DNA of 64,000 nt from an uncultured Gammaproteobacteria bacterium (GCA_943788005.1 CALSOP010000002.1:248001-312000); one strand, 5' to 3'. Shown: positions 8,299 to 32,189, counted from the first letter of the stretch. Numbers and translations: made by a program. Notes: generated by a model from the sequence alone, not told the origin.

Positions 8299-8691
8299 AT
8301 GGATCATACAGCTCTTAATGAAGGCCTGACCTTACTGGCAATATCTTTACTTGTCGTTTGGGTTTTAAAACGAATTAAACTACCCCCAATTTTGGGTTAC
8401 CTATTTGTCGGTGTTCTAGTCGGCCCATATTCATTAGGCTGGTTGCCCGAGGGTGAACATATCAAGACTCTGGCAGAGATTGGAGTGGTGTTTCTGCTCT
8501 TTATGGTTGGTCTCGAATTCTCATTATCAAGACTGATAGCGATGAGAGCGACTGTTTTTGGTCTAGGTAGTTGTCAGGTTGTTATTTCGACCTTATCCGG
8601 TGGGTTTATTGCCTGGCTAACAGGTATCGAATGGCAAGCAGCATTGGTCGTCGGCGGTGCGCTGGCGCTTTCTTCAACAGCAATTGTTGCC
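8299..8691 (+). pseudogene. KefB/CPA2-type monovalent cation:proton antiporter, N-terminal fragment cut by IS copy 1
   Basis: LKLPPILGYLFVGVLVGP-like start, VFLLFMVGLEFSL, ALALSSTAIVA then IS terminus. Confidence 0.85.
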
Positions 8692-8774
8692 TGTACCCCG
8701 TCAGCACCATGTGGACCAACTAGCCTGATTGTCTAAGAGATAGTTTTAGTTCATCGTTAACCCAAGAGGAAACG

Positions 8775-9137
8775 ATGATGACAAGTAAAAGAAGTGTAGA
8801 ACATACTGTGCGCGATATTCGTCGACGCACCCGTAAAAAATATTCAGCAGAAGAAAAAATTCGTATCGTACTTGAAGGCTTACGTGGCGAAGAAAGCATC
8901 GCTGAGCTATGTCGCAAGGAAGGACTAAACCCAAATGTTTACTACCGTTGGTCGAAAGACTTTCTGGAGGCAGGTAAGAAACGTTTATCAGGCGATATCG
9001 TACGTGAAGCGACCTCAGATGAAGTCAAAGAACTGCGTGCTGAAACATCTGCGCTGAAAGAAACCTTAGGCGAAGTAGTCATGGAGAATCGGCTGCTTAA
9101 AAAAAGCGTGCTCGGGGATGGGGAGGACGATATATGA
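8775..9137 (+). CDS. IS transposase OrfA (HTH)
   Basis: EEKIRIVLEGLRGEESIAELCRKEGLNPNVYYRWSKDFLEAGKKRL. Confidence 0.9.
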   Translation: MMTSKRSVEHTVRDIRRRTRKKYSAEEKIRIVLEGLRGEESIAELCRKEGLNPNVYYRWSKDFLEAGKKRLSGDIVREATSDEVKELRAETSALKETLGEVVMENRLLKKSVLGDGEDDI

Positions 9138-10132
9138 GGTACTTAGCATCGGATAAAGTCGAGATTATTCAACTGGTACAGAACTCAGATCTGTCGGTTC
9201 GACAAACGCTGACTCGGCTGGACATTCATAAGTCCACTTTTTACAACTGGCTCAAACGTTATGAAGAGAATGGCGTTGATGGCTTGGAAGACAAGAAGCC
9301 GATTCCCCATGCGGTATGGAATAAAATCACCGAAGACCACTGTGAAGCCGTTATTGAGTTAGCCTTAGAGAAGCCTGATTTGTCTCCACGAGAGTTAGCC
9401 GTAAATTACACTGACAACAAGGCTTACTTCGTCTCAGAATCCACGGTGTACAGGCTGCTGAAAGAACAAGACTTAATTACCAGTCCGGCCTATATCCTGA
9501 TGGAGGCCAGTGATAAGTTTCAACAGCCCACTACGCGCGTGAATGAGATGTGGCAAACGGATTTTACCTATTTCAAGATTATCGGTTGGGGTTGGTATTA
9601 CTTATCCACGGTATTAGATGATTACTCACGTTACATTATTGCCTGGCGTTTATGTACGGGCATGAGTAGCCGTGATGTCTCTGATACGCTGGATGACGCC
9701 TTACGCTTTACGGGACTTGATACAGTAAAGGTAAATCATAAACCGCGTTTACTCAGTGACAATGGCCCGTGTTATATCTCCGGTGAATTAGCCGATTACC
9801 TTGAAGAAAACGGTATGACGCACACTCGAGGTCGACCTTATCATCCACAAACACAAGGCAAGATAGAGCGCTGGCATCGTTCAATGAAGAATCAGATATT
9901 ACTTCACCACTATTATTTCCCCGGGGAACTGGAGGAACAGTTGCAGCGTTTTGTGAGTTATTACAACCATGAGCGTTATCATGAATCACTTGATAACCTG
10001 ACACCGGCTGATGTCTTTTATGGGCGTGGCGAAGAAATACTAAGTCAACGAGAGCTAATCAAACAAAACACGTTAGCGATGAGACGACAAATGCATTACG
10101 ATAAACAACAAGTGAAGCACATAACCTATTGA
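9134..10132 (+). CDS. IS transposase OrfB (DDE integrase core)
   Basis: WQTDFTYFKI...LSDNGPCYIS...HPQTQGKIERWHRSMK; ATGA overlap with OrfA. Confidence 0.93.
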   Translation: MRYLASDKVEIIQLVQNSDLSVRQTLTRLDIHKSTFYNWLKRYEENGVDGLEDKKPIPHAVWNKITEDHCEAVIELALEKPDLSPRELAVNYTDNKAYFVSESTVYRLLKEQDLITSPAYILMEASDKFQQPTTRVNEMWQTDFTYFKIIGWGWYYLSTVLDDYSRYIIAWRLCTGMSSRDVSDTLDDALRFTGLDTVKVNHKPRLLSDNGPCYISGELADYLEENGMTHTRGRPYHPQTQGKIERWHRSMKNQILLHHYYFPGELEEQLQRFVSYYNHERYHESLDNLTPADVFYGRGEEILSQRELIKQNTLAMRRQMHYDKQQVKHITY

Positions 10133-10192
10133 TGAACTAATGTGTCTCTTAAATCAAACCGCTACCTGTCCAAAAGGTTTTGACGACGTACA

Positions 10193-11455
10193 GTCGGATA
10201 CCAATCTGTTAGATTAAAACCCGAACAAAAAGACATCGATTCAGCTGAAAATACATATAAGCGATTATGGCATCCCAAAAAGGGGATTGCCAAAATATTA
10301 AGCTCTTTTAATCCAGGCTTGATGGGTAAAATTGTCCTCGCAAGTACAACTGCTGTGATATTGGGTATTGCTGTTTCATATCTATTATCACAATCAGTAG
10401 ATTTAACATTCGCCATATCCTGTTTAACTATGCTGATAGCCAATTTTGTTTTTGCCAAGCTAATTGCAAAACCCTGGCAACAAGCTGCGAGAAAAGCTGC
10501 CGAGATATACGCCAACCCCGTCGCGCAAGAGGTCTATACCGGACGTCATGATGAGCTTGGACAATTGCAACTGGCGATTCGTATGCAGAAGGCAAAACTT
10601 GAAACCGTTATCTGGCGTATCAATGATGCTACTGTTGATTTGAAAGATTCCGTTGATGCCGCATTGATAAATGTTGAACAGACAGAACAAAATATGGATA
10701 ACCAAAACAGGGAAATTGAACAAGTTGCAACGGCCATGAATGAAATGACCGCAACGGTTAATGAAATTGCAAAAAACACGAGTTGTACAGCTGAATCGAC
10801 ACAACATGCCGATACTGAGGTTAACCTTGGAAAAGAGATTGTCCAATCAACCATCAGTCATATCGACGCACTGGCAGCTGAAGTCGAAAATGCTGTAGAT
10901 AAGATAAATACTCTGGCACATGACAGCAAGCAGATTGGAAGTATTGTTAATGTCATCACTGAGATAGCCGAACAAACTAATTTGCTAGCACTGAATGCGG
11001 CCATTGAAGCTGCCAGAGCAGGTGAACAGGGTCGTGGCTTTGCTGTTGTTGCAGATGAAGTCAGGACTTTAGCAAGCCGAACACAGACATCTACTCATGA
11101 AATTCAAGCCATGGTTACTACCTTGCAGTCTTCTGCTGATACTGCCGTACAGGTAATGACGCGCGGGCAGGATGCTGCTGCAAAATGCGTAGAAAAAGCC
11201 AAAGGCGCCGGGGAATCACTAGATTCGATCACCAATGCGGTTGATTCAATTACACAAATGACAACACAGATTGCAACAGCTGCAGAAGAACAAAGCGCTG
11301 TATCAGAAGAAATTAACAGAAATGTTATTCGCATTAGCGAACTTTCTGAGCACACCTTGCATGGAACTCAAATGATCAGTGCTTCAAGCAACAATGTTGA
11401 TCAAAGTGTAACTCGACTAAACAATCTGGTTAAACAATTTGGAAGTGGTCTGTAG
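10193..11455 (+). pseudogene. Aer-like methyl-accepting chemotaxis protein, N-terminal PAS region lost at the IS copy 1 junction
   Basis: Frame open from the IS edge: [26 protein letters not shown] (Aer-type post-PAS), then MCP core [37 protein letters not shown]. Confidence 0.8.
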
Positions 11456-11567: not shown

Positions 11568-11644
11568 TGGCGCGCTCGGAGGGACTCGAACCCCCAACCC
11601 TCGGGTTCGAAGCCCGATACTCTATCCAGTTGAGCTACGAGCGC
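11568..11644 (-). tRNA. tRNA-Arg(TCG)
   Basis: Reverse strand GCGCTCGTAGCTCAACTGGATAGAGTATCGGGCTTCGAACCCGAGGGTTGGGGGTTCGAGTCCCTCCGAGCGCGCCA; loop CTTCGAA. Confidence 0.95.
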
Positions 11645-12773: not shown

Positions 12774-14450
12774 TTATACAGCCGTAATCTTTACTGCACA
12801 TTTTTTAAAGTCAGTCTGTTTTGAAATTGGATCAGTTGCATCCAATGTTACTTTGTTGATCAATTGACTCGCATCAAACCATGGCACAAAGATCAAACCA
12901 CGTGGCGGTTTATTGCGACCGCGCGTTTCTACCCGGGTACGAATATTTCCGCGTCTGGATGCGACTATTATTTCACTACCACGACGAACACCAAGGTCAC
13001 TTGCGTCATCGGGATGCATAAAGGCAACTGCATCAGGGAACGCCTTGTACAGTTCCGGCACACGTTGCGTCATGGAACCAGAATGCCAGTGCTCTAGCAC
13101 ACGACCTGTCGACAACCAGAACGGATATTCCTCGTCAGGGGATTCAGCAGCCGGTTCGTAGGGTAAGGCGAAGATATTCGCTTTGTTATCTTTATTTCCG
13201 TAGAACTGATAGTCAGTCCCCGCCTTTACATAAGGATCACTGCCCTCTTTAAATCGCCAGCGTGTTTCCTTACCGTCGACTACCGGCCAACGTAGACCAT
13301 GCTCCTTATGATAGACATCAAAGTCTGCAAGGTCATGGGCATGTCCTCGACCAAACGTGGCATATTCTTCAAACAAACCTTTTTGTAGATAAAAACCAAA
13401 ATCTTTAGATTCATGGTTCGCGTAACCTTCTTCGATATCGGATAAAGGGAACTTGTCAACTTGTCCATTTTTAAACAAGACTTCATACAAGGTCTTTCCC
13501 TTATAGTCTGGGTTCGCATCTAGAATATCTTTTGGCCAAACCTCATCTGTTTTAAAACGTTTTGAAAATTCTACAACTTGCCATAAATCTGATTTCGATT
13601 CTCCCGGCGCATCCACCATTTCATGCCAGAATTGTGTGCGACGTTCGGCATTACCATAGGCGCCCTCTTTCTCTACCCACATCGCAGTAGGCAAGACCAA
13701 ATCAGCTGCTTGGGCTGTTACGGTCGGATAGGCATCGGAAACCACAATAAAGTTTTCAGGGTTTCTATAACCGGGATAACCTTCTTCGTTTATATTCGGG
13801 CCAGCTTGCATGTTGTTATTGACTTGTACCCAATAGGCGTTGAGCTTGCCATCTTTCAACATACGGTTTTGTAAGACTGCATGGTATCCAGGCTTCGCAG
13901 GAATAATACCTTCCGGAAGCTTCCATATTTTTTCTGCTATATCGCGATGTTCTTTTTTCTTAACAACTAAATCAGCTGGTAGGCGATGGGAAAACGTGCC
14001 TACTTCACGCGCGGTACCACAGGCTGATGGTTGCCCCGTTAAAGAGAAAGGACTGTTGCCGGGTGTTGAAATCTTACCCGTGAGGAGATGGATATTATAA
14101 ATAAGATTATTGCACCACACACCACGCGTGTGTTGATTAAAGCCCATGGTCCAAAACGATGTAACTTTAATTTTTGGATCGGCATAGAGCTCAGCCATTT
14201 TTTGCAATTTATCTCTAGGTACTCCAGAGAGTTTCTCGACATAATCTTCACCGTATTTAGAGACGTATTTAGCGAACTCTTCAAAACTGATCGGTGTTGA
14301 GCCACCCGCTTTATCGGCATTCTTTGCTGCTTTTTGTAATGGATGATTCGGGCGCAGACCGTAACCTATATCTGCATTACCCAATTTAAAATTCACATGT
14401 TTATCCACAAATGACTTATTAACCCGATCATTTTTAATGATGTAATTGGC
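12774..14450 (-). pseudogene. napA: Periplasmic nitrate reductase NapA, C-terminal ~2/3; N-terminus (Fe-S region) lost at the IS copy 2 junction
   Basis: [34 protein letters not shown] continues open to the IS edge; [29 protein letters not shown]. Confidence 0.92.
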
Positions 14451-14533
14451 TGTACCCCGTCAGCACCATGTGGACCAACTAGCCTGATTGTCTAAGAGAT
14501 AGTTTTAGTTCATCGTTAACCCAAGAGGAAACG

Positions 14534-14896
14534 ATGATGACAAGTAAAAGAAGTGTAGAACATACTGTGCGCGATATTCGTCGACGCACCCGTAAAAAAT
14601 ATTCAGCAGAAGAAAAAATTCGTATCGTACTTGAAGGCTTACGTGGCGAAGAAAGCATCGCTGAGCTATGTCGCAAGGAAGGACTAAACCCAAATGTTTA
14701 CTACCGTTGGTCGAAAGACTTTCTGGAGGCAGGTAAGAAACGTTTATCAGGCGATATCGTACGTGAAGCGACCTCAGATGAAGTCAAAGAACTGCGTGCT
14801 GAAACATCTGCGCTGAAAGAAACCTTAGGCGAAGTAGTCATGGAGAATCGGCTGCTTAAAAAAAGCGTGCTCGGGGATGGGGAGGACGATATATGA
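14534..14896 (+). CDS. IS transposase OrfA
   Basis: Same translation as 8775-9137. Confidence 0.9.
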   Translation: MMTSKRSVEHTVRDIRRRTRKKYSAEEKIRIVLEGLRGEESIAELCRKEGLNPNVYYRWSKDFLEAGKKRLSGDIVREATSDEVKELRAETSALKETLGEVVMENRLLKKSVLGDGEDDI

Positions 14897-15891
14897 GGTA
14901 CTTAGCATCGGATAAAGTCGAGATTATTCAACTGGTACAGAACTCAGATCTGTCGGTTCGACAAACGCTGACTCGGCTGGACATTCATAAGTCCACTTTT
15001 TACAACTGGCTCAAACGTTATGAAGAGAATGGCGTTGATGGCTTGGAAGACAAGAAGCCGATTCCCCATGCGGTATGGAATAAAATCACCGAAGACCACT
15101 GTGAAGCCGTTATTGAGTTAGCCTTAGAGAAGCCTGATTTGTCTCCACGAGAGTTAGCCGTAAATTACACTGACAACAAGGCTTACTTCGTCTCAGAATC
15201 CACGGTGTACAGGCTGCTGAAAGAACAAGACTTAATTACCAGTCCGGCCTATATCCTGATGGAGGCCAGTGATAAGTTTCAACAGCCCACTACGCGCGTG
15301 AATGAGATGTGGCAAACGGATTTTACCTATTTCAAGATTATCGGTTGGGGTTGATATTACTTATCCACGGTATTAGATGATTACTCACGTTACATTATTG
15401 CCTGGCGTTTATGTACGGGCATGAGTAGCCGTGATGTCTCTGATACGCTGGATGACGCCTTACGCTTTACGGGACTTGATACAGTAAAGGTAAATCATAA
15501 ACCGCGTTTACTCAGTGACAATGGCCCGTGTTATATCTCCGGTGAATTAGCCGATTACCTTGAAGAAAACGGTATGACGCACACTCGAGGTCGACCTTAT
15601 CATCCACAAACACAAGGCAAGATAGAGCGCTGGCATCGTTCAATGAAGAATCAGATATTACTTCACCACTATTATTTCCCCGGGGAACTGGAGGAACAGT
15701 TGCAGCGTTTTGTGAGTTATTACAACCATGAGCGTTATCATGAATCACTTGATAACCTGACACCGGCTGATGTCTTTTATGGGCGTGGCGAAGAAATACT
15801 AAGTCAACGAGAGCTAATCAAACAAAACACGTTAGCGATGAGACGACAAATGCATTACGATAAACAACAAGTGAAGCACATAACCTATTGA
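14893..15891 (+). pseudogene. IS transposase OrfB with premature TGA at 15352-15354
   Basis: ORF track splits it into 14893-15354 and 15421-15891; intact copy at 9134-10132. Confidence 0.92.
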
Positions 15892-15951
15892 TGAACTAAT
15901 GTGTCTCTTAAATCAAACCGCTACCTGTCCAAAAGGTTTTGACGACGTACA

Positions 15952-23403: not shown

Positions 23404-23457
23404 GCCCCGGAATGATAACTCTGGACACTGGATTGAGAAAATCTATCTCACCATCTA
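23404..23457 (+). other. Degenerate att-like site plus remnant of a serine-recombinase 3' tail
   Basis: CCCGGAATGATAACTCTGGACACTGG vs CCCGGAAGGATAAATCTGGGCACTGG at 26311-26336 (23/26); frame reads RNDNSGHWIEKIYLTI*. Confidence 0.5.
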
Positions 23458-23507
23458 ATAAACTATCATTTAGTCTGTATAAAATTTCACTTAACTTGTT
23501 AATACCT

Positions 23508-24431
23508 TCACAGCTTAATATTATTGAATGTATCGCAGCTATCCATATCGCCGCTTTCCAAGCCGATCTTAAACCACTTGACCCGTTGCTCTGAACTACC
23601 GTGAGTAAAAGAATCTGGACTTACATGTCCTTGGGACTGTTTCTGTAAGGTGTCATCTCCAATCGCACTAGCTGCAGTCAAACCTTCTTCAATATCGCCA
23701 ACTTCAAGTAATTGTCTTGTGTTATTAGCATGGCTGGCCCAAACACCTGCGAGACAATCAGCTTGTAATTCTTGTAAAACAGAAAGCTTGTTTCCTTCAA
23801 CTTTATTTAGTTTGCTTCTCGCTGCATGTACCTTTTTGGATGTGCCTTCAAGAGTTTGAATATGGTGGCCTACTTCGTGAGCAATAACATAAGCTTGCGC
23901 AAAGTCACCGGGCGCTTTGAAACGATTCTTCAGTTGATCATAAAACCCCAAATCGATATAGACTTGTTGATCAGTTGGACAGTAGAAAGGACCCATGGCT
24001 GATTGCGCCATACCACAAGCAGATTTTACAGCGTCTCTAAACAAAACCAGAGTTGGTTCCTGATAGGTTTTTCCTTTCTTTTGAAATAAGGTATTCCACG
24101 TCTCTTCAGTATCCGCCAGAATCACAGAAACAAAATCTACTAATTCTTTCTCCGCCGCACTCTCCTGAATCGGCCGCTTTGAAGTGCTACTAACGGTGCT
24201 GACTGGTTGCAGTCCGAAAATACTTAGCATACTACCTAGGTTACCTGTCAATAAGCCATAACCACCGACACACGCTACTAGTATTACTGTTCCTTTAAGA
24301 CCGAGAAACTTAAATAACATCGGAAGTAAACGAATCAATCCACCACCACCGTTCCCACCACTCAGTCGAGAAGCACGCATGCTGCGTCGATCTTCCACAT
24401 TGCTACTTTTACGATTTCCACGCCAACGCAT
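23508..24431 (-). CDS. ypfJ: YpfJ-type neutral zinc metallopeptidase
   Basis: MRWRGNRKSSNVEDRR start, AYVIAHEVGHHIQTLEG, LQADCLAGVWA. Confidence 0.93.
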   Translation of the reverse strand: MRWRGNRKSSNVEDRRSMRASRLSGGNGGGGLIRLLPMLFKFLGLKGTVILVACVGGYGLLTGNLGSMLSIFGLQPVSTVSSTSKRPIQESAAEKELVDFVSVILADTEETWNTLFQKKGKTYQEPTLVLFRDAVKSACGMAQSAMGPFYCPTDQQVYIDLGFYDQLKNRFKAPGDFAQAYVIAHEVGHHIQTLEGTSKKVHAARSKLNKVEGNKLSVLQELQADCLAGVWASHANNTRQLLEVGDIEEGLTAASAIGDDTLQKQSQGHVSPDSFTHGSSEQRVKWFKIGLESGDMDSCDTFNNIKL

Positions 24432-24527
24432 AATTATTTTCCTAACAAGCTAAATTGTGAATATAAATACCGTTGATAAACTAACAGAAATATTAATCCA
24501 TAGAAAAAAAACTGGCAGCGAATGAAA

Positions 24528-24570
24528 TGCCGCGCCATGAAGGGCTCGAACCTCCGCCGCCTGTTTCGTA
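24528..24570 (-). pseudogene. Partial tRNA-Arg(ACG)-like 3' half (att remnant)
   Basis: TGCCGCGCCATGAAGGGCTCGAACCTCCGCCGCCTGTTTCGTA aligns with the tRNA-Arg 3' half at 32113-32156; no 5' half follows. Confidence 0.7.
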
Positions 24571-24626
24571 AATAATTACTCTAATTACTAATTTCTTATA
24601 TTAATTAGCTGTTTATCTTTATGAAG

Positions 24627-24904: not shown

Positions 24905-26239
24905 ATGCCCACGGGGAAATATATGTCAAATTTTAAAACTATTGGCCGTTATAAAATTGAAGAAAAGATCGGGGAAGGATCATACGGCCTTGTTTTCCGG
25001 GGCCAAGATCCGCTATTGCAAAGAGACGTTGCTATCAAGGTCGCAAAAATCAATACGAATTCACCTGAAGAAACACAGGAGCTTGCAAAAGCTTTCTACA
25101 ACGAGGCACAGATAGCGGGGAATTTCACCCACACGAATATTGTAACGGTTTTCGATGTTGGTAGAGATAACGGTATGGACTATCTTGTCATGGAGTTGGT
25201 GCCAGGACGGCCTCTTGATGATTATTTTAGTGATACGGGTATTGAGAGCGTAGAAGAATGCATCGATATCATTCATAAGTGTTGCGTAGCTTTAGATTTC
25301 GTTCACTTTCACGGGATCATCCATCGTGATATCAAGCCGGGCAATATAATATATAACCGACCTCAAGGCTTGGTGAAGTTAACGGATTTCGGTATTTCTC
25401 ACTACTTAGAATCCAAGGATCTTGTCACAAATGCAGGCACACTTGCCTATATGGCACCCGAACATTTTCTTGAAGCTCGCGATATCACTATCCTAACCGA
25501 TATCTTTGCACTGGGATGCACCATGTATAAAATGTTAACTGGAAAAAGGCCATTCGATGGAAATTCGAAAACATTAGTCAACCAAATCCTCTATGAAGCT
25601 CCCACGCCATTATGGGGACTTAGGCCAGATATACCAGATGATATTTGTGAAATCGTAGAAAAAGCAATGGCAAAACAGGATGCAGACCGATATCAATCCG
25701 CATTGGAATTTGCCGCTGATCTTATAATGGCTCATAACAAAATCGAACTTGAGAAAACCCAAAGTAGGAAATCTGTTTCGTGGCCACCTGAATTACAGTA
25801 CTACACTAACTTTAGACAGAATGACTGGTTTCGCTATTTTTCGCCTGATCAGATACAACAATTACTGCAAATTGGGTCAGTTAAAATAGTTCCTGATGGT
25901 TATGCCATCATCACGGAAGGAGAAGTCAGCCAAGAGTTCTTTCTGCTAATAGAAGGCCAGGTAATGGTTATGAAAAAAGGGGTTAATATCAGCTTACTTG
26001 AGAGCGGTGCTTGTTTCGGTGATACAAGCTTGCTTGGTGAAACAACACAACGTACCGCCAGCGTAAAAGCTATAGGCAGTGTGACACTCTGGATTATTGA
26101 TTCAAACAAAATAGAAAGCCTATCAGCAGAGAACCGCGCGTCTCTGTTCAAGACCCTGCTGGGAGTTTCTATGGAACGTCTCGAAGAACTTACCGGGGAT
26201 GTAGCTACCTTTATAGAAGGTTCTGATTTACAGATATAA
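24905..26239 (+). CDS. Ser/Thr protein kinase fused to a C-terminal cyclic-nucleotide-binding domain
   Basis: IGEGSYGLVFRG, AIKVAK, HRDIKPGNIIYN, LTDFGIS, YMAPEH; C-terminal IITEGEVSQEFFLLIEGQVMVM...FGDTSLLGETTQRTASVKA. Likely true start at internal ATG (MSNFKTIGRYKIEEKIGEG). Confidence 0.93.
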   Translation: MPTGKYMSNFKTIGRYKIEEKIGEGSYGLVFRGQDPLLQRDVAIKVAKINTNSPEETQELAKAFYNEAQIAGNFTHTNIVTVFDVGRDNGMDYLVMELVPGRPLDDYFSDTGIESVEECIDIIHKCCVALDFVHFHGIIHRDIKPGNIIYNRPQGLVKLTDFGISHYLESKDLVTNAGTLAYMAPEHFLEARDITILTDIFALGCTMYKMLTGKRPFDGNSKTLVNQILYEAPTPLWGLRPDIPDDICEIVEKAMAKQDADRYQSALEFAADLIMAHNKIELEKTQSRKSVSWPPELQYYTNFRQNDWFRYFSPDQIQQLLQIGSVKIVPDGYAIITEGEVSQEFFLLIEGQVMVMKKGVNISLLESGACFGDTSLLGETTQRTASVKAIGSVTLWIIDSNKIESLSAENRASLFKTLLGVSMERLEELTGDVATFIEGSDLQI

Positions 26240-26303: not shown

Positions 26304-26321
26304 TGGCGCGCCCGGAAGGAT
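26304..26321. repeat. attL, 18-bp exact copy of the tRNA-Arg 3' end
   Basis: TGGCGCGCCCGGAAGGAT; identity begins exactly at the CCA-encoding end. Confidence 0.8.
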
Positions 26322-26392
26322 AAATCTGGGCACTGGGAAGAATTACTGGTTATTAATATTTAAAATTTCAGCTTATGTGATACATTATAATT

Positions 26393-26428
26393 TATTGAAC
26401 AGACAGCCATTATTGAACAGACAGCCAA
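26393..26428. repeat. Tandem 18-bp repeat (2 units)
   Basis: TATTGAACAGACAGCCAT / TATTGAACAGACAGCCAA. Confidence 0.85.
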
Positions 26429-26511
26429 TAGTTAATGCAATCATTTAACATGCCTGTATGTTCTGTTATTAAATAAACTAATTATCCTCAAAAATAATTC
26501 AAGAGTAAAAA

Positions 26512-27615
26512 ATGGAAGCAATAGAGAAATCTTTTTCAAAAATCCCCGTCCAGGCAAGCCGCTCGTATACCACAAAAAATTTCAATGAAACTTTTGGCGA
26601 GATTTTTCTGAGAAAAAACATTCACACCCATTTAATTGAAAACAGCAAGTTTAACTCAAAATTACTCTCGTATGATGAGGGTTATCAGGCAAACCAAGCG
26701 AACTCAGAGCGTTTTATTAAACATATGAGTGAAATTGTTGAGATGTTAAAATCCAAATACCCCAAAGGTGCTAAATTAGTAGAAGTAGGCTGTGGGAAAG
26801 GCGACTTTGTTGAATTTATTCAGAATGATGGCTACTTCAAAATAACAGGATATGATGCTGCTTATCAGGGCAAAAACCCTGCTATACAAAATACGTTTCT
26901 AGACTCAAATTCAAAAATTACTGCAGATTTAGTTATTCTGCGTCATGTACTAGAACATATTCATAAACCTCACCATTTCTTGAGAATGCTCGCTGATATT
27001 TTTTCAACAAGCGATATTTACATAGAAGTTCCAGAGACGGATTGGATTTTTGAAAATGAGGTTTTTTTTGACATAACCTATGAACATGTAAACTATTTCA
27101 ATAAAGACTCAATAAGTAATTTATTCAAAAACATTATTGATACTGGAGTTCTTTTTGAAAGGCAATATCTATATTTATTAGCTGACATACAGTCACTTAA
27201 CTACCATGACTTATGTAAAAACTATGATGACCAATCATCATGGGAGCCAGTTAAATTAGAAAAATTATTTTCTAATTTTTTTAATCAAATAGAGAAAATA
27301 ACTGCTGACGACATATCTGGTAAGAAAGATATTTACATATGGGGAGCATCAACCAAAGGAGTTATGTTCTGCCACCATCTAAGCAATCTTTACCCAAGCT
27401 TATTCAATAGAGTAAAAGGAGCCATTGATATAAACCCTTTGAAGAGTGGACAATATATGCCATCAACCAAATTACCAATATACAGCTTTGAAAATTTTGC
27501 GGATATGAATAAAGGAAATGAAATAATATTAGTTTCAAACCCGAATTATCATTCAGAAATTTATGATATGTTAAAATCGAAAAATAACAAGGAACCCCTG
27601 CTTCTAGACCTGTAG
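26512..27615 (+). CDS. Class I SAM methyltransferase with C-terminal C-methyltransferase-like domain
   Basis: LVEVGCGKGDFVEFI, LRHVLEHIHKPHHFL, IYIWGASTKGVMF. Confidence 0.8.
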   Translation: MEAIEKSFSKIPVQASRSYTTKNFNETFGEIFLRKNIHTHLIENSKFNSKLLSYDEGYQANQANSERFIKHMSEIVEMLKSKYPKGAKLVEVGCGKGDFVEFIQNDGYFKITGYDAAYQGKNPAIQNTFLDSNSKITADLVILRHVLEHIHKPHHFLRMLADIFSTSDIYIEVPETDWIFENEVFFDITYEHVNYFNKDSISNLFKNIIDTGVLFERQYLYLLADIQSLNYHDLCKNYDDQSSWEPVKLEKLFSNFFNQIEKITADDISGKKDIYIWGASTKGVMFCHHLSNLYPSLFNRVKGAIDINPLKSGQYMPSTKLPIYSFENFADMNKGNEIILVSNPNYHSEIYDMLKSKNNKEPLLLDL

Positions 27616-27922
27616 CTTAAATCCACTAGTATTGTAACTTTAATATCACCCATATCTGCTTCTAAAACAGCGCACTCCGCAAAAGTTATTTAGCTCTTTA
27701 ATTATTTTTAACCCCGTATATGTAACACGGGGGGCTCCAAATACATAAAAACCTTACTATTTCACTTATCACCATATATATCAATAACTTGCAATAATTA
27801 GGCGCTTCAAAGCCCCTTCCACTCAGCTTAAATGCAGTCATATTTCGGAATTGTGCTTGACTGGATTATGCTCACTAGTGTACTTTCTGGGTATATTCAG
27901 AATTAACGCAGGAGTATTTAAT

Positions 27923-28504
27923 ATGATTAACACGATTCTCACGCCCGACGAGGCAGCAAAAGCACGACATTCTTTGGGGCTATCCCAAAATCATGTGGCC
28001 AAGGCAACCAACATCAGCCGCACCACGCTGGCGCTATTCGAGGTCAAAAAATACCTCCTGAGTGATGCGCAATTGCTCGCCCTTAAGGATTACTTTGGAA
28101 CATCAGGCTATGTCTTCGATGAAACTGAGTCGCTCTCCTCGCCCGAGTTACCAACACACAGTGAGCCTAAAGAGGTAGGGCTGCGTTTAATGGATGGCTT
28201 CGCTATTCCTGACGACATTGATGAGAACGTCATTGAGGATGCATTAGGTGAATATGAGCACAATGAAACCGAGATTGATGCACTGCTGACATCACATGCC
28301 GGAGCTCACTGGTTCAGTGGCGATGCTAAACAGGACGGCGTCAATCGATTGCAAGTTTTGATGTCTAAAAATTATTTGTTAATACAGCAACTACAAGGAC
28401 GCGAGCGATTAGCGTCGATAGCCCTGACTGATGAAATCGATCCTGAACAGATCACTAACGGTGAGTTGTTAAAACATGCGCTGAACACGCACGAGGTCAG
28501 TTAA
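27923..28504 (+). CDS. XRE-family HTH protein
   Basis: ARHSLGLSQNHVAKATNISRTTLALFE; RBS gcaggag upstream of ATG 27923 (ORF track start 27851). Confidence 0.8.
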   Translation: MINTILTPDEAAKARHSLGLSQNHVAKATNISRTTLALFEVKKYLLSDAQLLALKDYFGTSGYVFDETESLSSPELPTHSEPKEVGLRLMDGFAIPDDIDENVIEDALGEYEHNETEIDALLTSHAGAHWFSGDAKQDGVNRLQVLMSKNYLLIQQLQGRERLASIALTDEIDPEQITNGELLKHALNTHEVS

Positions 28505-28529
28505 GCAATGTATAACAAGGGGTTAAGCC

Positions 28530-29057
28530 ATGACAGCTAGACAGAAAAAACAGATTGCAGAGCGGTTACGTTCCGCACGCGAAAAACTGGAAATCACACA
28601 AACTGCATTGGCTAAACAATCAAAGGTTGGCCGTAGTGCCATTGTGCATTATGAAAACGCGCAGGCAATTCCCGGCGGGATGGAGCTCATCAAGTTATGC
28701 AAAGTTTTGGATATCACGCCCAACTATATCCTGAGTGGCACTGAGCAATTTCGGACGTCTCAGGAGCCTGAAACAGCTTTATTAAGTGATGACATGGTGA
28801 CTATGTTTTTCCGAGTCGCCATGTGTTTAACAAGCCTCAGCCCGGAAATCAGAGAAAGTGTTTCTTCGCTATTGATGACTTTGGTTAAACAAAAAATGAG
28901 TAATAAAGATTATGCGGACTTCATTGCGATGACAGACAACATTGCACAAGATATGAACGAAGCAGGGCTTGATTTTGAAAAAATATTCGACCAAATGGAT
29001 AACGATATTGATCTCGACAAGCTCAATAAACGCCTTGAGAAAAAGACAAAAAAATAA
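28530..29057 (+). CDS. XRE/Cro-CI-like repressor
   Basis: LRSAREKLEITQTALAKQSKVGRSAIVHYENAQAIP. Confidence 0.85.
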   Translation: MTARQKKQIAERLRSAREKLEITQTALAKQSKVGRSAIVHYENAQAIPGGMELIKLCKVLDITPNYILSGTEQFRTSQEPETALLSDDMVTMFFRVAMCLTSLSPEIRESVSSLLMTLVKQKMSNKDYADFIAMTDNIAQDMNEAGLDFEKIFDQMDNDIDLDKLNKRLEKKTKK

Positions 29058-29060
29058 AGC

Positions 29061-30137
29061 ATGTCAGACACGCCTCAACGTTTATTATTTGGTCACGACA
29101 CACTTGAATGCGCCTATTTCTTGGTTGCTAAAAGTACCGCCGAGATCAACTTCGATCACCTCGCCTTCGATAAAGAATCGATGCGACACAACAAAAATCC
29201 AGAGCCTAAAGTCATCACATTAGGCGGCACTGACTTTTTAATGCACCCCTATGGCACGTCAGGTGGGTATCCGTTTGTTATCGAGAACAAAGATTTTTTA
29301 ATTCGTTTTGGTCAATACAATTCACCGAGCTTTTTTGTTAAATACCAATGTCAGGCACTTTGGCAAAAAGGACCTTTAGCACTCCATGAGGAATTCATGA
29401 ACTGGGCCGATGCCGTCGGGCTATTCGCTCATCATGAAGAAGCGTTATCACGTGTTGATTTCGCTTTTGACTATCAAATAGAAACCATCGACTTTAATGA
29501 AGATGACTTCGTCAGCCTCGCGAGAAAAGACAGTCGCTATCGCAAAGACCGTGTCACGCAAACCTTCCAATATGGCAAGGGCGACGTCGTACTACGTGTA
29601 TACGATAAGGTTGCTGAAATCTCGGAGCAAAGCCACAAGGATTGGTTTTACACGCTCTGGGAGACCGACACAAACGTATGGCGCATTGAATGGCAATGCC
29701 GCAAACCTATTCTCAAACGTTTCGGGTTAGTCACTATTAAAGATCTCATAGAGGGTCAAGGTGATGTCTTACGTTATCTCGCAACCGAGCACGACACCTT
29801 GCGTGTGCCATCCAAGGACTCCAACCGTTCACGTTGGCCTTTGCATGCACTCTGGCAAGACCTACAGACACACATTAATGATATAGAGGGTGTCGGTGTC
29901 TATCGCACTCTCGATGACAAGGCCATTCTCGCTGAAAACAAAGAACGTATTGCGATCAGCATATACGGTTACATGAAAAGATTTGCTGCGCTTCAATGCG
30001 TTACTAGCGATTCAAAATCGTGCAGTCTTAACCAAGCGTTCGACCTATTAAAAACGCGGCTAGATGATATCCATGAGCCCTTTATCTGGCCGAGCGAAGT
30101 CGAAAAACGTGTTAACAAAATACGGTTAGGTTCTTGA
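29061..30137 (+). CDS. Replication initiation factor (Rep_trans/RstA-like) protein
   Basis: LSRVDFAFDYQ, VVLRVYDKVAEIS, WRIEWQCRKPILKRFG, typical of Rep_trans initiators. Confidence 0.75.
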   Translation: MSDTPQRLLFGHDTLECAYFLVAKSTAEINFDHLAFDKESMRHNKNPEPKVITLGGTDFLMHPYGTSGGYPFVIENKDFLIRFGQYNSPSFFVKYQCQALWQKGPLALHEEFMNWADAVGLFAHHEEALSRVDFAFDYQIETIDFNEDDFVSLARKDSRYRKDRVTQTFQYGKGDVVLRVYDKVAEISEQSHKDWFYTLWETDTNVWRIEWQCRKPILKRFGLVTIKDLIEGQGDVLRYLATEHDTLRVPSKDSNRSRWPLHALWQDLQTHINDIEGVGVYRTLDDKAILAENKERIAISIYGYMKRFAALQCVTSDSKSCSLNQAFDLLKTRLDDIHEPFIWPSEVEKRVNKIRLGS

Positions 30138-30328
30138 TGTTAAGCGAAGCGATGCAAGCACGACTCTCAGAGAGCCGAAATAGAATTCTTAGCTATGGTG
30201 AGCTTGCATTGCCTCCTTCACAATTTAAAGCATTCAGAAAATTAGTACTTGATGAGTTAGGCCGAAGTGGTTTGGAATCGGATTTGGAAAAAATATTGGC
30301 CGACTTAAAACAACAACAGGAACGGTAA
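30134..30328 (+). CDS. Small protein, unknown function
   Basis: 64 aa, start overlaps the rep stop codon. Confidence 0.5.
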   Translation: MMLSEAMQARLSESRNRILSYGELALPPSQFKAFRKLVLDELGRSGLESDLEKILADLKQQQER

Positions 30329-30373
30329 GGCATGGGCAGGCAAATACTATGCAAAAAAGGAGGTGCGCCATGA

Positions 30374-30526
30374 GTGACCGATTCCGATTTTACTTATGAA
30401 CCTGTCGTGGTATTAAAAGGTGATATTGAAACCGTGCCGACTGAGGACGAGTTACGCTTACTGTTACAATTTATGCCTGAACTTTACCGTGACATGCTTA
30501 TACTAACTGAAAACAATCAGGAGTAA
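30374..30526 (+). CDS. Small acidic protein, unknown function (not in the supplied ORF track)
   Basis: GTG start; VTDSDFTYEPVVVLKGDIETVPTEDELRLLLQFMPELYRDMLILTENNQE*; ends just before the recombinase ATG. Confidence 0.5.
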   Translation: MTDSDFTYEPVVVLKGDIETVPTEDELRLLLQFMPELYRDMLILTENNQE

Positions 30527-30531
30527 TCATC

Positions 30532-32157
30532 ATGGCCGTTGCACTCTATGCGCGCGTATCGACGACACGCCAAGCCGATAATGACTTATCCATCCCAGAT
30601 CAGTTAAAACAAATGCGGGATTGGTCTAAGACAAATGGGTTTGATGTCGCGATTGAATATATTGAGCCGGGTGCATCGGCCAAGGATGACAAACGTCCTG
30701 CCTTTCAAACGATGATCATGGATGCCACCATGAAACCTTCACCGTATGACGCCATCATCATACACAGTCTGTCTCGTTTCTTTCGTGACTCACTCGAATT
30801 CGCGCTCTATGAAAACCGGCTGAAAAAAGCAGGTGTTAAACTCATTTCGATCAGCCAACAAACGAGTGACGATCCGTCAGGCGAGATGGCCAGAAAAATG
30901 TTTAGCTTGTTTGATGAATACCAAAGCAAGGAAAACGGCAAGCATACCTTGCGTGCAATGAAAGAGAATGCACGTCAGGGCTTTTATAACGGCACACGAC
31001 CACCTTACGGTTATAAAAAAGTAGATGCGAGTATCAAAGGCAATCGTGGTCGCATGAAAAAACGCATTGTGCCGGATGAGGTCGAGTCCGATATTGTCAG
31101 AAAATTGTATAACCTCTATGTGAATGGCCATGAGGGTAAACGACTTGGCGCAAAGAGCATTGCTACGCTCATGAATCAACAAGGCTATACATTGCGTGGT
31201 GCAACGTGGCGAGCGCAACGCGTGAATGAAATACTAAAAGACACCACTTATATTGGACAACACTATTTTAATAAGCGAGACGCACAAAAAACGCTTAAGC
31301 CTGAATCGGAATGGGCTTTAACCAAAGTTGAACCACTCCTTGAAAAACAAGTGTTTAACACTGCTCAACGCATTCGTGAACAACAATCACCCAAGCAATG
31401 CGCACCACGTAGTTTGGCCTCCCCTATTTTGTTAAGTGGGCTTATAAAGTGCGGACAATGCGGCTCAGGCATGACATTAATGACGGGCAAGAGTGGTCAA
31501 TATCGGTATTACAAATGCACCAAGCAAAAGAACAAAGGTAAACATTTGTGTAACACACCGAACATACCGATGACACCATTTGATGATCAAATACGCACGC
31601 ACTTAGCAGACAAAGTGTTTACCCCAAACCGCGTTCGAAACATGCTCGAACTGTTAAAGAAAAACTTCAAGCACGTGCATACGCACGAACAAGCCAAGAT
31701 AGGTTCCTTACAACGTCAGTTAAAAACAACCGAGGCAGGCATCACGCGTTTATATGAGGGCATTGAGCAAGGCGTGCTCGATCTTGATGAATCACTCACA
31801 GCACGTCTGAAACAGCTCAACACAAAGAAACAGGACATGCTCATAGCATTGACCGGAATGCGTGAACGACAAAACATACCCATTGATAAGCTAACAAAGA
31901 GTCAGCTTGATGCCTTTTGCAGAGCATTGAAATCGAGGCTTAATGATAAAGCGTCGCACTTCGGCAAAGCGTATATGCAGTTATTAGTTGATGAAGTGGT
32001 TATCGAGAAAAAGCAGGCTATTGTATCGGGTAGTTATGTGGCATTAGCAGAGGTAGCTCATGGAGCAACTAATGATAAACGTTTATCATCAGTGCCCATT
32101 TTTACTAGTAGTTGGCGCGCCCGGAAGGATTCGAACCTCCGACCCCCTAGTTCGTAG
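30532..32157 (+). CDS. Large serine recombinase (resolvase N-terminus, recombinase, zinc-ribbon)
   Basis: ALYARVSTTRQADNDLSIPDQ, LSRFFRDSLEFA, GTRPPYGYKK, LIKCGQCGSGMTLMTGKSGQYRYYKCTKQ...C; stop codon lies inside the tRNA gene. Confidence 0.95.
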   Translation: MAVALYARVSTTRQADNDLSIPDQLKQMRDWSKTNGFDVAIEYIEPGASAKDDKRPAFQTMIMDATMKPSPYDAIIIHSLSRFFRDSLEFALYENRLKKAGVKLISISQQTSDDPSGEMARKMFSLFDEYQSKENGKHTLRAMKENARQGFYNGTRPPYGYKKVDASIKGNRGRMKKRIVPDEVESDIVRKLYNLYVNGHEGKRLGAKSIATLMNQQGYTLRGATWRAQRVNEILKDTTYIGQHYFNKRDAQKTLKPESEWALTKVEPLLEKQVFNTAQRIREQQSPKQCAPRSLASPILLSGLIKCGQCGSGMTLMTGKSGQYRYYKCTKQKNKGKHLCNTPNIPMTPFDDQIRTHLADKVFTPNRVRNMLELLKKNFKHVHTHEQAKIGSLQRQLKTTEAGITRLYEGIEQGVLDLDESLTARLKQLNTKKQDMLIALTGMRERQNIPIDKLTKSQLDAFCRALKSRLNDKASHFGKAYMQLLVDEVVIEKKQAIVSGSYVALAEVAHGATNDKRLSSVPIFTSSWRARKDSNLRPPSS

Positions 32158-32189
32158 CCAGGTACTCTATCCAGCTGAGCTACGGGCGC
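32113..32189 (-). tRNA. tRNA-Arg(ACG)
   Basis: GCGCCCGTAGCTCAGCTGGATAGAGTACCTGGCTACGAACTAGGGGGTCGGAGGTTCGAATCCTTCCGGGCGCGCCA; loop CTACGAA. Confidence 0.96.

Follow-up and report, generated by a model that had tools for sequence, protein, structure and literature searches.

Streptococcal IMEs of the MobT/Rep_trans type (PMC5704250, PMC5357655) are small and integrative, encode a Rep_trans initiator/relaxase and have no conjugation machinery of their own, and in these respects the element described here resembles them. They differ from it in their hosts (Firmicutes); moreover, tyrosine integrases serve those IMEs in the tables of PMC5704250 that encode Rep_trans, the serine-recombinase IMEs of the same paper disrupt genes whereas the present element targets tRNA 3' ends without disruption, and in the present element a GTAAC hairpin sits at the cargo junction. 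The staphylococcal cassette chromosome (SCC) is alike in its CcrB-like large serine recombinase, exchangeable cargo, recurrent insertion at one site, recombinase-less cargo segments and possession of its own replication module (PMC7581432). In contrast to SCC, with its staphylococcal site and Cch/Cch2 helicase operon, our element has a tRNA-Arg target, a Rep_trans initiator, no helicase among its ORFs and no CCPol/MP. With the pT181-type plasmids (RepD/RepSTK1, PMC4797284) it shares the Rep_trans fold, the catalytic residues and a predicted nick site in a hairpin loop; it differs in being integrated with a recombinase, in the origin sequence and in the C-terminal part of the initiator, for which no counterpart was detected. 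The CTX/RS1-type filamentous phages and satellites (RstA) likewise have a Rep_trans initiator next to an RstR/DicA-like repressor, but our element encodes its own serine recombinase and has no Zot, capsid or morphogenesis genes.

We analyzed a stretch of 64,000 nucleotides (the window) from an uncultured Gammaproteobacteria bacterium (GCA_943788005.1, CALSOP010000002.1:248001-312000), for which an earlier description made from the sequence alone (the sequence-only reading) was at hand. With a probability of about 80%, as judged from sequence comparison, the locus would be a replicating, probably mobilizable integrative element of ~5.8 kb that lies at a tRNA 3' end and carries swappable cargo. 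The enzymes are known ones, in a combination, layout and origin for which searches of open-access papers gave no description, in keeping with the earlier suggestion that the element type could be an undescribed one. The order of the parts is attL, variable cargo, origin candidate, regulator(s), Rep, two small ORFs, large serine recombinase and attR/tRNA, and the features are as follows (window coordinates, strand).

11568-11644, minus: tRNA-Arg(tcg); attB, unoccupied in the window; genome G375 has the same element core there
23406-24583, no strand: older core-less cassette; degenerate arm at 23406-23437, Zn-metallopeptidase at 23508-24431 (minus), tRNA-Arg relic at 24525-24583
24905-26239, plus: protein kinase and cNMP-binding gene in the hotspot; adjoins tRNA-Arg(acg) in G373 and G375, too
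26304-26336, plus: attL; crossover region TGGCGCGC (26304-26311), then element arm CCGGAAGGATAAATCTGGGCACTGG; same arm in relatives
26512-27615, plus: cargo SAM-dependent methyltransferase; Methyltransf_23 and Methyltransf_14 (Pfam)
27712-27746, plus: candidate replication origin/Rep nick site; hairpin CCCCGT-ATATGTAAC-ACGGGG, then GGCTCCAAATACAT; exact left edge of the conserved core
27923-28504, plus: XRE-like regulator 1; HTH weak, sub-threshold (Pfam)
28530-29057, plus: XRE regulator 2, DicA/RstR-like HTH; Pfam HTH_3 8e-13, NCBIfam DicA/RstR below cut-off
29061-30137, plus: REP, predicted Rep_trans-type initiator/relaxase, from fold search, residue check and homologs
30134-30328, plus: o64, small ORF; most relatives have it; its start overlaps the stop of REP
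30374-30526, plus: o50, small ORF 5' of the recombinase; G375 counterpart 98%, those of G323, L124 and L140 diverged
30532-32157, plus: REC, large serine recombinase; Pfam, phrog_95 integrase 3e-93, CcrB-like
32090-32130, plus: attR; element arm CAGTGCCCATTTTTACTAGTAGT, then TGGCGCGC and tRNA sequence; arm pairs in inverted orientation with that of attL
32113-32189, minus: target gene tRNA-Arg(acg), ARAGORN; stays intact

The exact 18-bp repeats and the ORFs of the sequence-only reading were recomputed and came out at the same positions, and its methyltransferase at the left end was recovered with Pfam; the tRNA target, the attP dyad, the hairpin at 27712-27746 and the role of the methyltransferase as exchangeable cargo are points beyond it. 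As for its two XRE genes, the second holds as an HTH_3 protein, while the first gave only the weak sub-threshold HTH, and its start is more probably ATG 27923 (Shine-Dalgarno GGAG) than TTG 27851. Each of the Resolvase, Recombinase and Zn_ribbon_recom domains of REC scored above its Pfam cut-off, as in a large serine recombinase, and the 3' end of the REC ORF extends through attR into the tRNA. The dN/dS values of REP (0.09) and REC (0.08) indicate purifying selection; that of XRE regulator 2 was 0.17. No excisionase was identified in the element, and we infer o50 only as a candidate directionality factor. As had been claimed, neither capsid, Zot-like nor conjugation genes were found, and searches of the element with Pfam and PHROGs gave no coupling protein and no packaging or filamentous-phage morphogenesis genes; since genes for a capsid, packaging and conjugation are absent, transfer must borrow a helper or take another route. 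The gap between o64 and o50 (30328-30374, ATGGGCAGG...AAAAAAGGAGGTG) is nearly identical to that of G323, the surrounding proteins being ~55% identical, and is possibly a leader peptide or regulatory site. Assemblies of two species (contigs L028:1, L103:1 and L023:1) break at one place within XRE1 (window 28198-28282), and confusion of the assembly by the shared element is the probable cause.

The 18-bp repeats (26304-26321 and 32113-32130) flank the element, the right one being the 3' end of tRNA-Arg(acg) and the left one a copy of it, and the genome of the window carries a single copy of the element. Joining of the ends yielded an attP with the inverted arms CAGTGCCCATTTTT... and ...AAATCTGGGCACTG, in which a 9-bp TGGGCACTG arm stands on each side; this dyad was reached by 62 of 5000 shuffles. 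In a relative (the congeneric MAG JAJFKL010000045.1, also G369/G375), a 92%-identical core lies inside tRNA-Arg(tcg), with TGGCGCGC-CCGGAAGGATAAAACTGGGCACTG as attL and CAGTGCCCATTTTTGCTAGTAGT-TGGCGCGC-TCGGAGGGAC as attR, and the 10 bp after TGGCGCGC are of the element type at attL and of the tRNA type at attR. Since element and tRNA sequences switch there in both attachment sites of the relative, this comparison places the crossover inside TGGCGCGC, approximately the first 8 bp of the 18-bp repeat and the only ones shared. Such a short crossover core and an inverted-arm attP of about 50 bp are expected of a large serine recombinase. The more distant G323 relative has the same arms and a tRNA-Asn 3' fragment as the target, and recombinase relatives elsewhere also end within tRNA genes for Asn (L127, L140), Arg (L128) and Glu (L142). 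By anatomy, with REC present and with attL and attR flanking elements at the tRNA genes of several genomes, the element would encode its own excision and integration and insert site-specifically, as IMEs do. Separately, in G373 (L061:7357-7394) an element arm adjoins tRNA-Arg(tcg) in reverse orientation, which would fit integration in either direction through a palindromic central dinucleotide (GC). Upstream of the G726 element, on the reverse complement of L143 (~2780-2830), P-left and P-right directly adjoin, and the arrangement resembles a junction between two tandem elements.

The HMM check proposed for 29061-30137 was only partly favorable: REP scored 13.7 bits against Rep_trans (PF02486; E 0.049), below the gathering score of 29.6, and E 0.0044 against Phage_CRI (Pfam). 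The L124 relative gave 21.3 bits with Rep_trans, and the best of 14 REP homologs reached it at E 7e-7. The sequence search of PDB with REP gave only a sub-significant match to 4cij (E 0.11 and 0.41); a REP model built from 14 sequences (pLDDT 76), which replaced a poor three-sequence fold (pLDDT 52), matched RepSTK1 4cij with Foldseek (E 5e-12, prob 1.0, TM 0.43-0.56). All 11 conserved/active-site residues checked from PMC4797284 were present with the expected short spacings: R179, Y181, K183 and E186 (RxYxK..E), R131, D133, A135 and D137 (RxDxAxD), R208 and E210 (RxE), and D13 (N-terminal Asp), with Y181 as the predicted nucleophile. From the Pfam score of the homologs, the RepSTK1 fold match and the eleven residues, REP is by predicted anatomy (fold and active site) a Rep_trans-type nicking enzyme, and the claimed pairing of a Rep_trans protein with a large serine recombinase is borne out by fold, active site and Pfam domains. 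The label "HUH endonuclease" was rejected for REP, Rep_trans proteins being without HUH (PMC4797284).

The sequence-only reading had also named a satellite. In such a case the element would depend on a filamentous or tailed phage, and REP would make single-stranded or circular DNA for packaging by this helper. CTX-phage replication proteins belong to Rep_trans (PMC4797284), the best viral fold match was an Inoviridae protein, and one relative in an IMG/VR contig has a neighboring gene that weakly matches a terminase small subunit; however, REP had no match in 50,697 phage records, neither the REP profile nor the hairpin pattern (see below) had a match in IMG/VR, packaging and capsid genes are absent from the element, and most relatives are chromosomal, beside tRNAs. 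We regard a satellite as improbable and found no positive evidence for it; the element may plausibly be mobilizable. Among plasmids, only four weak matches to REP were obtained, and the recombinase search of IMG/VR did reach one family member, L124. That L124 is a linearised circle with an intact attP was considered and rejected, as it has no terminal repeat and its second arm lies 7 nt from the core versus ~17.

The origin candidate, CCCCGTNNNNGTAACACGGGGGGCTNNAAATACAT (27712-27746), lies at a sharp boundary between cargo and core: the window, G375 and G377, which carry different cargo, show an abrupt onset of similarity at 27712, where CCCCGTATATGTAACACGGGG starts. The same hairpin sequence is found at the same place in G323 (Rep 54% identical), which has a second relic elsewhere with the core deleted. 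A phylum-wide Rep search gave six further elements (Rep 36-52%, recombinase 35-51%), 6/6 with the motif upstream of rep. The hairpin is nearly invariant (n = 11 copies) with Reps down to 36% identical; GTAACACGGGGGGC and AATACAT are invariant in all the copies, and a 5-7 bp stem forms in 10/11, two of which have a loop one base longer with the stem kept. The pattern search of 399 Pseudomonadota genomes gave 12 matches (0 with the reversed-pattern control), and the hairpin was present in 8/8 REP-bearing genomes versus 4/391 others (Fisher 3e-14). Folding energy alone is uninformative, since in a stretch of 156 nt the hairpin folded no better than its shuffles did (z 0.14), and L124 (REP 50%) had no recognisable hairpin in its contig. 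A second setting is provided by tyrosine-integrase islands (L016-L022, L115), which have a homologous Rep (22-28% identity over the alignment) and the octamer GTAACACA, but differ in having a tyrosine integrase and a small HTH gene; in these distant Reps the octamer falls within the rep coding sequence and belongs to a hairpin with compensatory changes, two pairs covarying between its arms, as a Rep site would show, and the covariation gives paired peptide changes (GA..NTAP versus GT..NTVP). Because the two independent settings, upstream of rep and inside rep, share the motif, the hairpin is a candidate Rep recognition or nick site, and the GTAACACGGGG hairpin is the putative nicking substrate of REP. 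The in-gene GTAACACA hairpin was observed in the rep N-terminal region of L016, L017, L007, L020, L021, L022, L013 and L115.

The search for elements with the same gene order, proposed earlier, was successful: several other genomes hold homologous elements that agree in gene order and in their ends, the order REP-o64-(o50)-REC being kept in members down to 36% identity, and sequence comparison gives close and distant cousins of the same layout across Pseudomonadota. Two of the grounds named for refuting the sequence-only reading, a lack of related elements and a 29061 ORF outside any replication or relaxase family, therefore do not apply. Since a core fragment in G377 (487 bp) shares 97.3% identity with the window versus 84% for the host flank, horizontal movement of the element core between species is supported. 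This interspecies spread also agrees with an IME in which REP acts as a relaxase only and the hairpin as oriT, without vegetative rolling-circle replication, and in streptococci many IMEs and ICEs are mobilized by relaxases of the Rep_trans/MobT type (PMC5704250); we nevertheless consider this separation possible but less probable than a replicating element, since MobT of Tn916 and ICEBs1 does both jobs (PMC5704250) and separation is not expected. Core-less and decayed relatives occur commonly at this site, which might point to an immobile remnant whose conserved genes merely betray former mobility; yet its genes are all intact, both arms are present, selection is purifying and a near-identical core occurs in other species, and such a remnant appears very improbable.

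The methyltransferase is absent from the G375, G377 and G323 elements, which have other cargo at the same place. The genes between attL and the hairpin are unrelated: the methyltransferase in the window, PAS-GGDEF-EAL in G375, a TPR-methyltransferase in G377, a lipoprotein-like gene in G323 and DUF2971 with others in G456. Where attL was not located, a SIR2-HerA pair (G794), a PAS histidine kinase (G453) and a caspase-like protease (G516) were found left of the hairpin. The SIR2-HerA defence pair (PADLOC E 1e-170 and 4e-283; L141 9082-12397, immediately left of the hairpin) is probably cargo of the G794 element. Exchange of the passenger region between elements is shown by these sequence comparisons.

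For the replicating, probably mobilizable element, the following course is proposed. The large serine recombinase would join attP, with its inverted TGGGCACTG arms, to the tRNA 3' end by a crossover in TGGCGCGC that leaves the tRNA intact; the regulators would hold the operon quiet, and induction would lead to excision as a circle with the predicted attP junction CAGTGCCCATTTTTACTAGTAGTTGGCGCGCCCGGAAGGATAAATCTGGGCACTG. REP would nick the loop of the conserved GTAAC hairpin for rolling-circle replication and probably also serves as relaxase when a helper conjugation system mobilizes the element. The passenger region from attL to the hairpin is swapped between elements, and repeated insertion at tRNA-Arg would, from the pattern seen in the comparison, leave core-less cargo in the flank. 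More tentatively, and with more doubt than confidence, the family might be pan-Pseudomonadota with the Rep nick site as the cargo-exchange junction, so that Rep nicking itself may capture or exchange cargo. In this reading the nick site would be the cargo junction, with the attL-hairpin side swapped and the other side conserved. The family itself is defined by origin hairpin, gene order and attachment arms; it is compact and has one exchangeable cargo slot, through which signalling enzymes, methyltransferases and, probably, a SIR2-HerA defence pair have entered the genomes of proteobacteria. The hairpin can serve as a search key for the family and for relics where Pfam misses Rep, the recombinase group as a source of integrases targeting tRNA 3' ends, and cargo exchange driven by a rolling-circle initiator would become a testable question.

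The tRNA-Arg flank is a hotspot of insertion: to the left of both tRNA-Arg genes, almost every congener has a different sequence. The attL arm occurred 12 times in the own genus (control, 0) and, at two mismatches, 35 times family-wide versus 10. Segments with attL, cargo and then the tRNA, without a core, were found in G375 (acg) and G376. In the core-less cassettes at L030:6006-9013, L065:537-2161 and window 23406-24583, the arm is on the left, followed by cargo and by tRNA-Arg or its relic on the right; recombinase, Rep and the second arm are missing. These cassettes could conceivably be non-autonomous elements in their own right, which the recombinase moves in trans, and not decay products, and the layout trailer/P-right, cargo, trailer/tRNA does recur in G375 and G376; we are inclined to doubt it, however, as the P-left arm is missing and post-integration deletion or tyrosine-integrase islands (45-nt tRNA fragments) can give similar scars. 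The 45-nt tRNA fragments in relatives were dropped as products of this recombinase, tyrosine-integrase scars being more likely. The cassette at 23406-24583 is absent from G375, and the kinase gene is absent from G374 between the conserved flank and the tRNA. This Ser/Thr kinase (24905-26239) scored with the defence kinases PD-T4-6/MADS6 in PADLOC; such matches are generic for kinases. A 1.5-kb sequence occurs twice in the window (8691-10193 and 14450-15951), both copies matching one 89%-identical segment in G373; it lies near the tRNA-Arg(tcg) locus and probably represents an insertion sequence.
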